A stretch of 64,000 nt of DNA, taken from assembly GCA_020850735.1 (NCBI GenBank), contig JADZEE010000051.1, positions 1 through 64,000 on the forward strand, in the 5' to 3' direction. This document shows positions 53,269-59,644 of the stretch, piece after piece. Position 1 is the first letter of the stretch; every line of letters starts with the position of its first letter. This DNA comes from Gammaproteobacteria bacterium. Lineage in GTDB: Bacteria; Pseudomonadota; Gammaproteobacteria; JADZEE01. A program made the position numbers and the translations under genes. The notes under the pieces were generated by a model. It had not been told where the DNA came from and searched no databases. It was given only the letters and a program-made list of their open reading frames with translations.

Positions 53269-53446
53269 GAGCTCGTGAAACATTCGCCCGCCGCAGCGAG
53301 ACGGTTCCCGGGCGTTCAGGCGCGGGGGTGCACGAAATCGCGCGCGCAGCGGGCCTGGGGAAACGATTCCGGGGGTCCCCGCAACGCGGCCAGGGGCGTC
53401 CAGGGGCCGTCGCAGCAGGCGCGGTGATGGTTTCACAAACGCTCAG
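53269..53446. repeat. MITE-like dispersed element, copy 2
   Basis: The second copy of the element at 36847-37024, in the same orientation, starts GAGCTCGTGAAACATTCGCC (53269) and ends GATGGTTTCACAAACGCTCAG (about 53446). Again it lies between the start of a minus-strand gene (kinase) and the end of another (CigR-like), whose stop codon overlaps the repeat edge. Internal segments such as GGGGGTCCCCGCAACG and CAGGGGCCGTCGCAGCAGGC are shared exactly. Confidence 0.7.
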
Positions 53447-53919
53447 CGGGCGACGTCATACAGGATGTCACGGATGACGCCGGTGGCGACGTCGACGAGG
53501 ATGACGTCGCCGCCGACCAGGACCCGCTCGGTGCCTGCAGGCGGCGCGCCGAGCTGCTCTTCGAGCGCGGGCGGGAGCTCGCGTTGTTCGAGTCCGGGTG
53601 GAAGCCGGCCTTTTTTCTGCAAGTGCCGGCTCAAGCCCGGCGGCAGATCTGCGCGGCGGGCGAGCCCGGGCGGCATCTGCTTGTGCTTGCCGCTCGCTTT
53701 TTCCTTTCCGTCCTGGCGGTGTTGGTCGGCACCCGGCGCCGCTGCATCGTCGGGCTGCGGGTGATCGGCATACCAGCGTGCGATGCCCTGGCGTTCCAGC
53801 TCCGTAAAGCCGGCATCGACCGCGGCGCGTACGGCGGCGCCCACTGCCGAGTCGGCCGCGGCCGCGCCGCGCGCGGTCGCGAGCACCAGCAGGGTGATGA
53901 CGAGGATCGACGTGCGCAT
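53443..53919 (-). CDS. Exported CigR-family-like protein
   Basis: The 158-residue protein has a signal peptide (SILVITLLVLATARGAAA) and AGGAG before the ATG. The C-terminal half has repeated PPGL motifs (MPPGLARRADLPPGLSRHL, GRLPPGLEQRELPPALEEQL) and ends VLVGGDVILVDVATGVIRDI plus LYDVAR. This is the pattern of CigR/RcnB-like periplasmic proteins (named for a Salmonella anti-virulence regulator). The role is unknown. It follows the SCO1-MauG fusion gene by 34 bp and is probably in the same operon. Confidence 0.8.
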   Translation of the reverse strand: MRTSILVITLLVLATARGAAAADSAVGAAVRAAVDAGFTELERQGIARWYADHPQPDDAAAPGADQHRQDGKEKASGKHKQMPPGLARRADLPPGLSRHLQKKGRLPPGLEQRELPPALEEQLGAPPAGTERVLVGGDVILVDVATGVIRDILYDVAR

Positions 53920-53953: not shown

Positions 53954-55930
53954 TCAGTCGCGGTCGCCGACGGGCGCGGCGAAGGCGTCGGCGACGAGCG
54001 TGTCGATATTGTCACCCGTCAGGTTTTCGAGAAACGCGACGAGATCGTCTTTTTCCTGCGCCGTGAGACCGAGCGCACGGATACGTGGATCGAGCAGTTC
54101 GTTGGCGACACCGCCCCGATCGTAGAACTCGATCACGGCGCGCAAAGTGGTGATAGATCCGTCGTGCATGTAGGGCGCCGTCAGGGCCACGTTGCGCAGG
54201 CTCGGCGTGCGGTAGCGCCAGCGATCGGCCGGGTCCAGGGTGATCTCGTAGGCACCGAGATCGGCCGGCACCGGTGAGGTCGCAGCGGCGACCACCTGCG
54301 GGTCCAGCGTCAGCCAGGTGCCGGGCGCGACCAGTACGCGTCTGTCGGTCGTGTTCGCGCCCATGCTGCGGGCGTAGCCGATCCCGGTGTTGTGCAGGTC
54401 GTCATCGGTGAACAAGGCGTAGTCGGGTCCGATCAGATGGCAGGCGCTGCATCCGCCCTTGCCGGTAAATACGTCGTAGCCGCGCCGGGCCGCCGCCGGC
54501 ATGGCCGCCTCGTCCTTGCCGTAGTACCAGCGATCGAAGGGGCTGCCGCCCGACACCAGCGTGCGCTCGTAGCTGGCAATCGCGGCGCCGACCGTGGCCA
54601 TGCTCGGCCCCGCCCCGTCGAACGCGGCGGCGAACAATTCCGCGTAGTCCGCCAATGCCGCGATCTTGTCGAGCAGGTAGCCGACCGCGGGATTGCCCAT
54701 CTCGTTGGCAGCGAGCAGCGGACCCCAGATCTGCTGCTCCAGCCGGCGTTCGCGACCGTCGTGGAACAGCCGCGTCCGGTAGCCGACGTTGTAGAGCGTG
54801 GGCGCATTGCGGCGCACGCTGCGACCCTCGATGCCGATGGCCGTGGATAGCTCGTTGCTGGTGAATCCCTGCTCGGGGATGTGACACATGGCGCAGGAAA
54901 TCGTGTCGTTGTGCGACAGTCGGCGGTCGTAAAAAAGCCTGCGCCCGAGCGCGATCCTGGCGGCGGTCGGCGGGTTGTCGTCCGGGGCCGTCAACGGCGG
55001 CAAGCCCGCTGGCGGCCTGGTGAGCGCGGCGCCGAGATCGGCGGCCCGGCCGCGGCGATGACCGAGCGCCTGCGAACGGGTGCGGTAACTGTCCTGCTCG
55101 TAGCCGCGTTTGTCGTCGCCGGCGCCATCCACGCGCGCGGAGCTGCGCTCGGGCACTGTTCGCGCCGCTTCGGTGTCGGCGAACAGCACCGTGCGGACGT
55201 CGTTGACGAGCGTGTCCACGTGCAGGAACGAGGTGCTGTAAATGTTGCGGATTCGGCGGGCGTCGTCGATGAGGAAAACGCGCAGGATGTGTGAGATGGA
55301 GCCGAGCGATGCGCCGTCGGGGCCGACATCGTTGACCAGTGACTGGCCATAGGCCGCCAGGATCGGAGCCAGCGCCCGCGCCGAGGCGCCGGTGAGGAAT
55401 TGCCAGTCGCCCGCGCGTCGGTAGGCGCGGGCATAAGCGGCCATGACGGCCGGGGTGTCGCGGCCGGGATCGAAGGACAGGCTGAGCAGCCGGACCCGGT
55501 CGCGCAATTCGGGCAGGGCGGCGATGCGGTCCTGCACCTGGCCGAGGACGTAGGAAGCGAGCGGACAACCGTCGGCGTCCGCGCAGTGGGTGTAGATGAA
55601 CGACAGCAGCACGAGGCGGCCGTCGAACAACTCGTGCAGGCGTCGCGTCCGGCCCAGTTCGTCGAGCACCGTGCCGTCCGCGGCGGCACCCAGCACGGGC
55701 AGGGTGTAGGTACCGGCTGGCGGAGCGGTGAACGCAGCCGGGGCGTAACCCGGCGGCGCGACCACTGCGGGGTGATCGCTGCCGTCGGAACCGCCGTGTG
55801 CGTATGCGCCGGCGACCACGGCCAGCACGAGCGCGGTGACGCACGCCGGCGCCGCGACCGCACGTGCACCGGTCCTGGCCACGGCCGATTGCCCGGGGGT
55901 GCGCCTCAACCCGAGCGCGGCCGCATCCAT
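53954..55930 (-). CDS. SCO1/SenC - di-heme cytochrome c peroxidase (MauG-like) fusion
   Basis: The 658-residue protein carries a signal peptide (CVTALVLAVVAGAYA). Residues 65-255 form a SCO1/SenC thioredoxin-fold copper-chaperone domain with FIYTHCADADGCPLA, Cys116 and Cys122 (a CX5C spacing, wider than the classical CX3C), and His214. Residues 300-650 are a bacterial di-heme cytochrome c peroxidase/MauG domain with heme motifs SCAMCH (346-350) and CSACHL (494-498), and EQGFTSNELSTAIGIEGR. The neighbours, a methanethiol-oxidase-like gene upstream and a CigR-like gene downstream, suggest maturation of MtoX. The ATG at 55930 has only a weak ribosome-binding site. Confidence 0.87.
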   Translation of the reverse strand: MDAAALGLRRTPGQSAVARTGARAVAAPACVTALVLAVVAGAYAHGGSDGSDHPAVVAPPGYAPAAFTAPPAGTYTLPVLGAAADGTVLDELGRTRRLHELFDGRLVLLSFIYTHCADADGCPLASYVLGQVQDRIAALPELRDRVRLLSLSFDPGRDTPAVMAAYARAYRRAGDWQFLTGASARALAPILAAYGQSLVNDVGPDGASLGSISHILRVFLIDDARRIRNIYSTSFLHVDTLVNDVRTVLFADTEAARTVPERSSARVDGAGDDKRGYEQDSYRTRSQALGHRRGRAADLGAALTRPPAGLPPLTAPDDNPPTAARIALGRRLFYDRRLSHNDTISCAMCHIPEQGFTSNELSTAIGIEGRSVRRNAPTLYNVGYRTRLFHDGRERRLEQQIWGPLLAANEMGNPAVGYLLDKIAALADYAELFAAAFDGAGPSMATVGAAIASYERTLVSGGSPFDRWYYGKDEAAMPAAARRGYDVFTGKGGCSACHLIGPDYALFTDDDLHNTGIGYARSMGANTTDRRVLVAPGTWLTLDPQVVAAATSPVPADLGAYEITLDPADRWRYRTPSLRNVALTAPYMHDGSITTLRAVIEFYDRGGVANELLDPRIRALGLTAQEKDDLVAFLENLTGDNIDTLVADAFAAPVGDRD

Positions 55931-56036: not shown

Positions 56037-57407
56037 TCAGCGCAACGCGGCAACCGCGTCTGGCTGCTGCCCGGTCGCGTACAGGGCACGCGCACCGAAG
56101 CGCATCTGGTGTGGTCTGCCGAGCTTCGCCGCGGTGAAGTCGATGCTGAACGCCGGCGTGAGTTTGCCGCCCACCCAGTTGTAGGCCTTGAAATATTGCA
56201 GATCGCCTTCTTGCGCCGCCGCCTGGGTCTTGTCCCAGTTGCCGAGCAGCGAGGAGGTGAAGTACACGCGCTTGCCATCCCAGCTCTGCGACACCATGTT
56301 GACCTGCGCGCCGATCTTCTCCGTATAGATCTCCTTGGGCTGGAACGGATCGGAGACGTCGAAAAGACGCGCCGTACCGTCGTTCCAGGTGTCCACCCAC
56401 AGCAGCCGGTCATCGGCCGAGATGGAGATGTCCACCGGCAGCGGGATCTTGCTGGCGTCGCCGATGTCGGCCACGGCCTGCGCCTGCCACTGGCCGGTGT
56501 CGGTGCGGTGGATCAGCCAGATCTTCGACGTCAGCGCCGTGGTCGTGAAGCAGTAGTCGTGCTGGGCGCCCCATGCGCAACGCACTTCCAGTGGTGCGCC
56601 GGGCACATCGAGCACCTGTCTGGGCTTGCGGCTGTGCAGATCCCAGATCGCCACCGTGTTGCCGAAGCGCTTCATCGCTTCCGGATCGGCCATCATCTTG
56701 CCGAGGTCCATCATGTAGTTGTTCCAGCCGGTGAACGAGGAGGTCACCATGACGTTCAGGCGCGGCTGCGCGCGCACGTCGTAGCCGTAACCGTCCGCAT
56801 AGGCGCCGCTCTTGACCGCGCCCTGGAGGTTGTCGTCGGTCGGCATCCAGTAGGTCGCGACATACTCGCCGTCATTGGTGTATTCGACCATGGCCGTGCG
56901 GCCACCGTGATCCTTGTTGTTCGACAGTCCGGTGATCAGCATGCGCCCCGGCAGGGCGTAATGCGTGTGCGGACCCACCACGCCACCGCTCCTGGCGGTG
57001 AAGTCCGCGACGGTTTTCGCGAGCCTGGGTGCCGCCGGATCGCTGTGAATGTCGAAGACGAAAATCTTGTTGGTGTCCAGCCCCCCCGCCCACAGGTAGC
57101 GGCGGTCGTCGGTGAGCCCGGAATGGTGCGCCTCGTTGCGGCCGCCGACGGACAGCGTGTGGATCACCTGGCCGTAGCTGGCGGAAGCCGGGTTCACGTC
57201 GATCGTCACGAGCTTGTCCTGCTCGTCGCCGAGGCCGCTCTGGCCCAGCGTCCACACGTAGACGTAGTCCTCCTGGCCGACGATCTTGGCCATATAGGGT
57301 GACAGGCAGGTTTCATCGGCGGCGGCAGGCAGCCCCGCCGCGAGCACCAGGACCGCGCCGATCGCGGCAGTCCCCCGGCGAATGAACGTGATCGTGCTGG
57401 TATCCAT
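56037..57407 (-). CDS. mtoX: Methanethiol oxidase / selenium-binding-protein family
   Basis: The 456-residue protein of the SBP56 family has a signal peptide (GTAAIGAVLVLAAGLPAAA) and a GGGAGGGG ribosome-binding site before the ATG at 57407. Beta-propeller segments are GRNEAHHSGLTDDRRYLWAG, GPHTHYALPGRMLITGLSNN, MVTSSFTGWNNYMMDL and PVDISISADDRLLWVDTWND. Conserved His residues (HH, HTH) fit copper binding. MtoX oxidises methanethiol to formaldehyde, sulfide and peroxide, and its known genes neighbour SCO1 and MauG genes, exactly as here. The activity is inferred from the family and context. Confidence 0.85.
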   Translation of the reverse strand: MDTSTITFIRRGTAAIGAVLVLAAGLPAAADETCLSPYMAKIVGQEDYVYVWTLGQSGLGDEQDKLVTIDVNPASASYGQVIHTLSVGGRNEAHHSGLTDDRRYLWAGGLDTNKIFVFDIHSDPAAPRLAKTVADFTARSGGVVGPHTHYALPGRMLITGLSNNKDHGGRTAMVEYTNDGEYVATYWMPTDDNLQGAVKSGAYADGYGYDVRAQPRLNVMVTSSFTGWNNYMMDLGKMMADPEAMKRFGNTVAIWDLHSRKPRQVLDVPGAPLEVRCAWGAQHDYCFTTTALTSKIWLIHRTDTGQWQAQAVADIGDASKIPLPVDISISADDRLLWVDTWNDGTARLFDVSDPFQPKEIYTEKIGAQVNMVSQSWDGKRVYFTSSLLGNWDKTQAAAQEGDLQYFKAYNWVGGKLTPAFSIDFTAAKLGRPHQMRFGARALYATGQQPDAVAALR

Positions 57408-57486
57408 GTTGCCCCTCCCGCGCCCCGGGCGCTGTCTGGATAAGTACGTGGCCATTGTACGGTCGCCGCCCCCCGATCCAAACCCG

Positions 57487-57608: not shown

Positions 57609-58904
57609 TCAGGTTTGTGCGCGCGGGGAGGGTCGCGGCCCGGCGCGCCGGTAGCGGCCGTAACGGACTGCGCCGAGGGCGAGATTGAAGCCGAGCAGAA
57701 CGTTCGCGGCGGCATAGACGCCCGCCGCCACGCGAACCAGGACGGGCCACGCCAGCGCGCCCAGCAGCAGGACCAGTGCGGCCAGGTGCAAGCCGAGCTG
57801 CGCGCGCGCGTAGCCGTCGTCGATGAATTCGTGCATGTGCCGGCCGCGGATGCCGGCACGTTGCAGATGCAGCCAGGCGAGGAACGGTACGATCTTGTAG
57901 AGCATGCCGTTGATGACCGACTGCGCGAAGCCGATCAGTACGAGGATCCCGATCGCGATATCGGTCGCCGGCGCGGCCGCGACGCCGCCCGCAGCGCGCG
58001 CCGACCACAAGCCGATTGCCGCCAGCAGGCACACCATAGCCGCGCGCCAGTAGCTGAAGGTGACGTCGGCGATGCGCCGCCGGCGGCGACTCTGGAGCAC
58101 GAGGGTAGTCAGCGCGAAAGCGGCGAAGCCGATGCCGATCGCGGCCTCGGCGAGGTCGACGAGCACGTCGGGCAACCGACTGAGCGCGTGCGCCGACCAC
58201 ACGACGAGCAGCGCGAACAACGTGATGCCCAGGACACGCTGGAGAATGCGCGGATACGATGGTGTCACCTGGAACATGGGCACGACCTGGTAGGCGACAC
58301 CGGTCACCAGCAGACCGATCCAGCCGAGCAACCCCCAGCCGGCATGCAGCGAAATCAGATCGACAGGCAGGCCTGGCAGCGCGAAGCCGCTGCGCCGGGT
58401 GGCGAGGGTGACGCCCAGCGTCAGGGTCACGAGCAGGGCGACGAGCGCCAGTGCAATCGTCGTGCTGCTCGGTCCGCGTGCCGGGGAGCGCAGCAGCGCA
58501 ATCGTTGCCGCGAGCAGGAACACCACGAATCCGGCGGCGAGCAACGCCGCGGCGTGGACCGACGCCACGGGTGCGCCCGCGAATGCGGCCGCGAGGGCGG
58601 CGCAGCCGCCGGCGAGCGCAACGTGCACGAATGCGGCCACCATGCGCGGGCGCGGGAAGGTGCCGCCGCACAACACGGGGATGATCTGGAACAGCACGCC
58701 CAGCATGACCATGGCGGCGAATCCGAGCGTGAGCAGATGGGTGACGGCGAGCAGCCACGGCGATGCGGAGTGGCTGAGGGCGGCCGGGCCCGCCGCGGCG
58801 AGCACGAGGCCGGCGGCGATGGCGAATACCGGCGCAGTGAGCAGGAACCGCAGCGGTACCGACAACGTTGGCGTGTAATCGAACGACAGGTTGGCGTTGT
58901 GCAC
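57609..58904 (-). CDS. Polytopic membrane protein, heme-copper-oxidase-subunit-I-like / NnrS-like
   Basis: The 431-residue protein has about twelve hydrophobic segments, such as FLLTAPVFAIAAGLVLAAAG, THLLTLGFAAMVMLGVLFQI and LHAGWGLLGWIGLLVTGVAY. Single histidines lie within or at the ends of segments (VTHLLTLG, SLHAGWG, YKIVPFLAWLHLQ), which could bind heme or metal. It resembles the membrane proteins often seen beside hemerythrin and DUF2249 genes and is loosely related to NnrS/NorB-like proteins. It is the last gene of a module with DUF2249, hemerythrin and ferritin-like genes, suggesting a role in NO or low-oxygen physiology. Confidence 0.75.
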   Translation of the reverse strand: MHNANLSFDYTPTLSVPLRFLLTAPVFAIAAGLVLAAAGPAALSHSASPWLLAVTHLLTLGFAAMVMLGVLFQIIPVLCGGTFPRPRMVAAFVHVALAGGCAALAAAFAGAPVASVHAAALLAAGFVVFLLAATIALLRSPARGPSSTTIALALVALLVTLTLGVTLATRRSGFALPGLPVDLISLHAGWGLLGWIGLLVTGVAYQVVPMFQVTPSYPRILQRVLGITLFALLVVWSAHALSRLPDVLVDLAEAAIGIGFAAFALTTLVLQSRRRRRIADVTFSYWRAAMVCLLAAIGLWSARAAGGVAAAPATDIAIGILVLIGFAQSVINGMLYKIVPFLAWLHLQRAGIRGRHMHEFIDDGYARAQLGLHLAALVLLLGALAWPVLVRVAAGVYAAANVLLGFNLALGAVRYGRYRRAGPRPSPRAQT

Positions 58905-58928: not shown

Positions 58929-59192
58929 TCAGCGCGCGCGCGCGTTCGCGCCGGTGTCCGCGTCCGCATCGCCCGCACGCCAGATCAGGATCTCGAAGCC
59001 TGGCGGATCCCGGTCCTGCATCCGCCAGGCGTAACCGAGCGCCTCGAGCTCCGGCAGCAGCGGCCACGGCTGGCGATGGATCAACACGCACAGCCAGTCG
59101 CCCGGGGACAAGGACTCCAGGGCCGTCAGGATGCGTTCCATCGGCTCCGGCGGCGGCAGATCGCTGACGTCGAGCAGGATCTCCCCGGACAT
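58929..59192 (-). CDS. DUF2249 protein
   Basis: The 87-residue protein is a small alpha/beta domain: LLDVSDLPPPEPMERILTAL, LSPGDWLCVLIHRQPWPLLP, ELEALGYAWRM and FEILIWRAG, the pattern of DUF2249/TusA-like folds without the TusA catalytic Cys (the Cys in DWLCV is not in that position). DUF2249 genes commonly accompany hemerythrins and nitrite/NO-related genes. It lies 17 bp after the hemerythrin gene and 24 bp before the membrane protein gene. Confidence 0.85.
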   Translation of the reverse strand: MSGEILLDVSDLPPPEPMERILTALESLSPGDWLCVLIHRQPWPLLPELEALGYAWRMQDRDPPGFEILIWRAGDADADTGANARAR

Positions 59193-59209
59193 CCCCTGCC
59201 GTTCCTCGA

Positions 59210-59644
59210 TCAGGCTTCGATGCGGGCGCGGGCGTCGGCCGCGTGCGCCTCGTCCATGAGCTCGTCGGCGAGGGCGTACACGATCTGCTCCTCCTTCATG
59301 TTGTGCTGCTGCATGAGCACGAGCAGGGTCTCGGCAACGCCGAGGAAGGTGCGCTCGTCGCCGGTGTCGGCCGCCTGCGCGAGCTCTTCGATCAGCTGAC
59401 GCATCTCCTCGTGCTCCATGCGCATGACTTCGGTGGGGCCGCTCGAGCCGCCGGTGCGGGCTTCGATTCCGGGGAACATCGATTCCTCCTCGGCGAGCAT
59501 GTGCCGCTCGAGCGCCTGCCGGAACTCGCCGAGCAGGCGCCCGGTTTCACTCCAGTCCCCCTTTGCGGCGGCGGCTTCGAGCTCGGCAAAGCGATGGTCG
59601 CACTGGCGGTGGTCGGCGGTAAACGCTTCGGTGATGGTGCTCAT
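59210..59644 (-). CDS. Hemerythrin-domain protein
   Basis: The 144-residue four-helix bundle has diiron ligands visible as DHRQCDHRF, ALERHMLAEEESMFP, VMRMEHEEMRQL and MQQHNMKEEQIVYA, the H...HxxxE...H...HxxxE/D pattern. It could bind O2 or NO, or serve as an iron-repair (YtfE-like) protein; the short length argues for a stand-alone sensing or binding domain. It is part of a four-gene same-strand module. Confidence 0.9.
   Translation of the reverse strand: MSTITEAFTADHRQCDHRFAELEAAAAKGDWSETGRLLGEFRQALERHMLAEEESMFPGIEARTGGSSGPTEVMRMEHEEMRQLIEELAQAADTGDERTFLGVAETLLVLMQQHNMKEEQIVYALADELMDEAHAADARARIEA

Follow-up and report, generated by a model that had tools for sequence, protein, structure and literature searches.

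Described SCO1 and MauG partners of methanethiol oxidase

A single gene joining SCO1 and MauG domains beside mtoX, which encodes methanethiol oxidase, was already described in Methylophaga thiooxydans in two reports, from 2017 and 2019 (PMC5739008, PMC6548844). PMC6548844 places this fusion in both mto clusters of the organism, shows that cells growing on dimethylsulfide induce it together with MtoX, and proposes a role in MtoX maturation. PMC5739008 reports the presence of copper in MtoX and, for Hyphomicrobium sp. VS and Ruegeria pomeroyi, a neighborhood of mtoX in which SCO1/senC and mauG are distinct, so that the same proteins with the same partner are encoded by two genes instead of one. 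When its gene, mtoX, is supplied alone on a plasmid to E. coli BL21, RpMTO is produced in a form that still degrades methanethiol, so the maturation partners may not be strictly needed, and Cys28 of this enzyme, within the motif TCQSPYM, reacts with methanethiol (PMC10936201). As regards the di-heme component, MauG of methylamine dehydrogenase is characterized by Tyr ligation and by an inter-heme Trp, and the Tyr-ligated protein BthA, despite a Ser at the inter-heme Trp position, combines peroxide turnover with the ability to form the bis-Fe(IV) state (PMC6405878).

A SCO1-MauG fusion gene adjoins mtoX in a gammaproteobacterial contig

The window analyzed here is a stretch of 64,000 nucleotides from a Gammaproteobacteria bacterium (contig JADZEE010000051.1). 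It contains a SCO1-MauG fusion gene (53954..55930, reverse strand), a single open frame that runs from ATG to TGA without internal stop, encodes 658 amino acids and matches both the SCO1-SenC and CCP_MauG Pfam models. The start codon is ambiguous between the ATG at 55930 and a GTG at residue 17 (~55882). Directly upstream and on the same strand lies mtoX (56037..57455), the stop codon of which precedes the fusion ATG by 106 bases. Its 472-aa product belongs to the SBP56 family (PF05694) and passes the MtoX model NF052453 with 741.8 bits against a curated cut-off of 650.

These results bear out the original prediction in its description of the locus, namely a single frame that combines a SCO1 domain (with CX5C and His214) and two heme motifs next to mtoX, and the role in MtoX maturation that it put forward coincides with the published hypothesis (PMC5739008, PMC6548844). 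Its premise that described loci encode SCO1 and MauG separately is incorrect, since the same two papers report the fusion in Methylophaga thiooxydans. The two fusions are alike in the SCO1-then-MauG order within one gene, in the adjacency to mtoX and in a predicted signal peptide, and nothing different in kind was found between them; at the present locus, no pdo, sqrB or sulP was seen among the neighboring genes examined. The gene reported here is thus a further example of the SCO1/MauG fusion published for mto clusters, which is common in related bacteria.

The remaining neighbors are all encoded on the reverse strand. A small protein gene directly downstream of the fusion (53446-53919) has an RcnB-like C-terminus that scores 25.4 bits against a Pfam cut-off of 25.9. 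Upstream of mtoX, the gene at 57612-58904 encodes a 431-aa protein that appears hydrophobic by eye and has no Pfam match, and it is preceded by DUF2249 and hemerythrin genes in a row (58932-59644).

MtoX co-occurs with an MtoX-type MauG

The relationship between the fusion and MtoX was examined across 369 genomes of the class by reading two match lists side by side, with MtoX-type MauG defined as matches of about 48% identity or more. MtoX exceeded the cut-off in 31 genomes, and all 31 encode an MtoX-type MauG. Two further genomes (G417 and G637) present an MtoX-type MauG together with MtoX fragments below the cut-off, and the remaining 336 lack the MauG, yielding a Fisher p value of 4e-43, uncorrected for relatedness. 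Among these 336 genomes, G532 and G466 carry MtoX pieces with no MauG match, the piece in G532 being located at a contig end. In a sample of the phylum, with flanks of about 1.5 kb considered, SCO and MauG neighbors were found for 5/5 SBP56 proteins over the MtoX cut-off and for 0/20 under it.

The original prediction had raised the question of whether the fusion recurs in other genomes with mtoX always adjacent. The fusion is indeed widespread, but in a few genomes it is unlinked to mtoX: four fused genes have no mtoX nearby (L009, L011, L012 and L015), two of which (L009 and L012) are near contig ends. Since mtoX is located elsewhere in all four of these genomes, a wide occurrence of the fusion without mtoX, which the prediction had regarded as contrary evidence, was not seen, and every fusion genome that was checked has mtoX or an mtoX fragment. 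In one of the four (G301), the fusion (L012) is apart from an mtoX (L114) that has its own separate MauG, and it adjoins genes that by eye resemble those for persulfide dioxygenase and a SulP transporter.

Four histidines of MtoX, H110, H111, H163 and H449, are each shared by 44-45 of the 45 MtoX sequences and are putative counterparts of the published copper ligands, to which they were matched by spacing and not by direct alignment. Another set of residues (C50, W68, W122, Y247, W295, W353, W392 and W427) is found in true MtoX and absent from other SBP56 proteins. C50, present in 41/45 sequences, falls within the motif TCLSPYM and matches the cysteine of the RpMTO motif (Cys28). The TTQ pair proposed for RpMTO, W223/W386, probably corresponds by residue offsets to W244/W407 in the MtoX studied here. 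Both positions are also kept in SBP56 proteins that have no MauG neighbors (20/20 and 16/20, respectively), which weakens, without excluding, the tie between the MauG partner and the TTQ pair. The candidate MauG substrate is narrowed by two observations: the SCO/MauG pair is restricted to SBP56 proteins over the MtoX cut-off, and these carry Trp and Tyr residues absent from the rest of the family.

The fusion product is a likely maturation factor for MtoX

We consider it likely that the fusion product matures MtoX by supplying it with copper and by oxidizing one or more of its aromatic side chains. It would be a two-domain protein, predicted to be exported to the periplasm and acting on the product of the adjacent upstream mtoX. 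Copper would pass from the SCO domain, through C116, C122 and H214, to H110, H111, H163 and H449 of MtoX, and the di-heme domain, which resembles MauG in the His/Tyr ligation of its second heme, may carry out the peroxide-driven oxidation of one or several aromatic side chains of MtoX. The observations behind this reading are the single open frame, its two domains, the conservation of the ligands for metal and heme, and the near-perfect co-occurrence with MtoX. Copper delivery, the putative first half, draws on the ligand conservation and on the presence of copper in MtoX, and the putative oxidation half on kinship with MauG and MbnH. The original prediction went further in taking the fusion as support for direct cooperation of both activities on MtoX, which can be read neither from the joining of the domains nor from the order of the genes. 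Structural modeling of the fusion was poor in the heme region (pLDDT <50 at residues 340-415 and 551-591), and the model therefore provides no geometry in favor of the maturation scheme.

The di-heme domain departs from MauG at the inter-heme position

The C-terminal portion of the fusion is a MauG/MbnH-type di-heme domain (residues 316-642; 54005..54985, reverse strand). Its membership in the CCP_MauG superfamily follows from the match to PF03150 over residues 324-473, which scores 167.6 bits against a cut-off of 25.6, and from two CXXCH motifs, CAMCH (C346-H350; 54881..54895) and CSACH (C494-H498; 54437..54451), both on the reverse strand. Within the superfamily, the fusion scores under the cut-offs of both TIGR04039, the model for the MbnH family (239.7 against 362.85), and TIGR03791, the model for MauG of TTQ biosynthesis (205.4 against 443.85). 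The substrate of MbnH is MbnP and not MtoX. The closest solved structure to the di-heme domain is that of MbnH (6e1c), the title of which links this protein to copper homeostasis.

Inspection of the alignment singled out positions His390, Tyr603, W402 and W571, and p-values computed for them are therefore post hoc and take no account of relatedness. Tyr603 (54122..54124, reverse strand) lies where the classical cytochrome c peroxidases of bacteria (1iqc and 3o5c) have their axial Met, a position that is also Tyr in MbnH, and in the alignment a Tyr is found there in 58/58 MtoX-type MauG domains. Y603 and both CXXCH motifs, in their Cys and His residues, are invariant in fused relatives, as are C116, C122 and H214 of the SCO domain, and the heme motifs and the Tyr603 position are conserved also in the separate MtoX-type MauG forms. 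By alignment, His390 (54761..54763, reverse strand) corresponds to MauG Trp93, the residue between the two hemes. This position is His in 49 of the 58 MtoX-type MauG domains and Trp in only one, whereas Trp is found in 56/62 of the other relatives, and MbnH keeps Trp as well. We found no prior description of a His in place of Trp93 in MtoX-type MauG. W402 and W571 are invariant in fused forms and atypical of other relatives.

No TTQ mauG over the cut-off was found in four genomes searched, and the comparison with MauG of methylamine dehydrogenase hence draws on the literature and on HMMER scores instead of a residue alignment of our own. Both proteins have the di-heme fold and the Tyr ligand, and the distal-pocket Gln and Pro of MauG appear to be retained as Q400 and P404, a correspondence based on alignment and literature. 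The fusion differs in its His for Trp93, in its partner and in its score under the TIGR03791 cut-off. Given that BthA, with Ser at this position, still forms bis-Fe(IV), the loss of Trp alone does not exclude high-valent chemistry.

On a different reading of these features, the di-heme domain would be a peroxidase clearing the hydrogen peroxide that MtoX generates, and maturation would be left to the SCO domain only. Methanethiol degradation is described as peroxide-producing in PMC6548844, and BthA, which turns over peroxide, resembles MtoX-type MauG in lacking the inter-heme Trp (PMC6405878). We nonetheless regard this reading as unlikely: the closest solved relative and the best NCBIfam model both belong to the MbnH family and not to the classical peroxidases, a Rhodobacteraceae MtoX showed no detectable peroxide production (PMC10936201), and both the fusion to a copper chaperone and the exclusive pairing with MtoX are better suited to maturation.

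A CX5C motif marks the SCO proteins linked to MtoX

The SCO1/SenC domain spans residues 85-255 (55166..55678, reverse strand) and matches PF02630 over residues 99-226 with 54.8 bits against a gathering cut-off of 22.8. Sco1 structures are among its closest folds, with TM-scores by target of at most 0.87. The conserved distal His ligand of the family is present as H214 (55289..55291, reverse strand), the expected third copper ligand, and the canonical CX3C copper-binding motif is replaced by CX5C (C116-ADADG-C122; 55565..55585, reverse strand), with both Cys residues and His214 invariant across 24 fused relatives.

The CX5C spacing, which the original prediction deemed unusual, is so with respect to SCO proteins in general and is the rule for those linked to MtoX. 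It was found in 60/60 MtoX-linked SCO rows, fused or separate, a count restricted to readable motifs in which some genomes are represented more than once. Conversely, CX3C is present in all 40 SCO proteins of the class that are not linked to MtoX and whose motif was readable, a set that includes the two other readable SCO proteins of the fusion's own genome and leaves aside four unreadable ones. The separate-gene relatives identified here likewise encode a SCO protein with CX5C. The motif is hence no evidence of anything special to this locus, and its candidacy as a hallmark of the fusion was rejected, as separate SCO forms have it too. As judged from sequence comparison, CX5C characterizes the SCO proteins linked to MtoX as a group. 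Nothing relevant to CX5C together with SCO1 turned up among the papers listed in a literature search.

The departure from the CX3C of ordinary SCO proteins could also be read as a sign that the domain is a thiol-disulfide reductase, acting on an MtoX cysteine or in heme attachment, and not a copper chaperone, and the family-specific C50 of MtoX, as the counterpart of RpMTO Cys28, would offer a suitable cysteine. We judge this reading improbable, because H214, invariant and expected for copper binding, and the copper contained in MtoX according to PMC5739008 both argue for a chaperone. The copper-loading function of the SCO domain in MtoX maturation is therefore the reading that we retain.

Joining or splitting of the two domains is recurrent

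A search of GTDB contigs returned 25 loci at the level of the fusion protein (L006-L030), 14 of which present a single open frame, one of them truncated where its contig ends; in the others, the SCO and MauG genes are separate or partly absent. With whole-genome searches added, the set of distinct MtoX-type MauG domains comprises 35 that are fused and 23 that are separate. The maximum-likelihood tree inferred from the di-heme domain shows that the MtoX type forms one group (support 99/98), apart from the outgroup sample. The label of fused or separate changes nine times on this tree, with at least six of these changes forced by well supported branches, indicating that joining or splitting is recurrent. 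Four genomes of the class have a tandem second MtoX-type MauG gene without SCO domain after the fusion (L131, G355:C63:12370-15523; L140, G306:C6:18288-21119; L138, G538:C6:663028-665408; and L145, G621:C72:162455-164802), and the extra copies of L138 and L145 form a basal branch of the di-heme tree.

Separate MauG proteins align to the fusion from query residue 263-270 onward, which places the join between the two domains at residues ~255-264 (55139..55168, reverse strand). Just past the join, Y282, R292, G294 and L299 are near-invariant across 24 fused relatives, and these residues, together with the alignment start of the separate proteins, provide homology support for the frame over 55100-55300. 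First-position GC is the highest across the linker too, like in both flanking domains. The fused gene of one relative in a draft assembly (L202, G329:C230) has a frame break within the MauG domain. Even though many relatives encode the two domains as separate neighboring genes and the G329 frame is broken, we reject as highly improbable the notion that two adjacent genes were joined artificially in sequencing or assembly, given that about 35 distinct proteins of many genera share this single frame and that the fusion is reported for a cultured organism in PMC5739008 and PMC6548844.

Implications for MtoX maturation

The oxidation of methanethiol forms one step in the global sulfur cycle. The fusion locus adds no new kind of gene to what is known of it, and what remains of interest is the set of MtoX-specific features that its two domains display. 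Tentatively, and as a possibility to which we give modest credence, the MtoX-linked SCO and MauG proteins may constitute a coevolved pair of their own, made up of a CX5C chaperone and a di-heme oxidase with an inter-heme His, which would modify one of the MtoX-only residues W68, W122, W295, W353, W392, W427 or Y247 instead of the TTQ pair.
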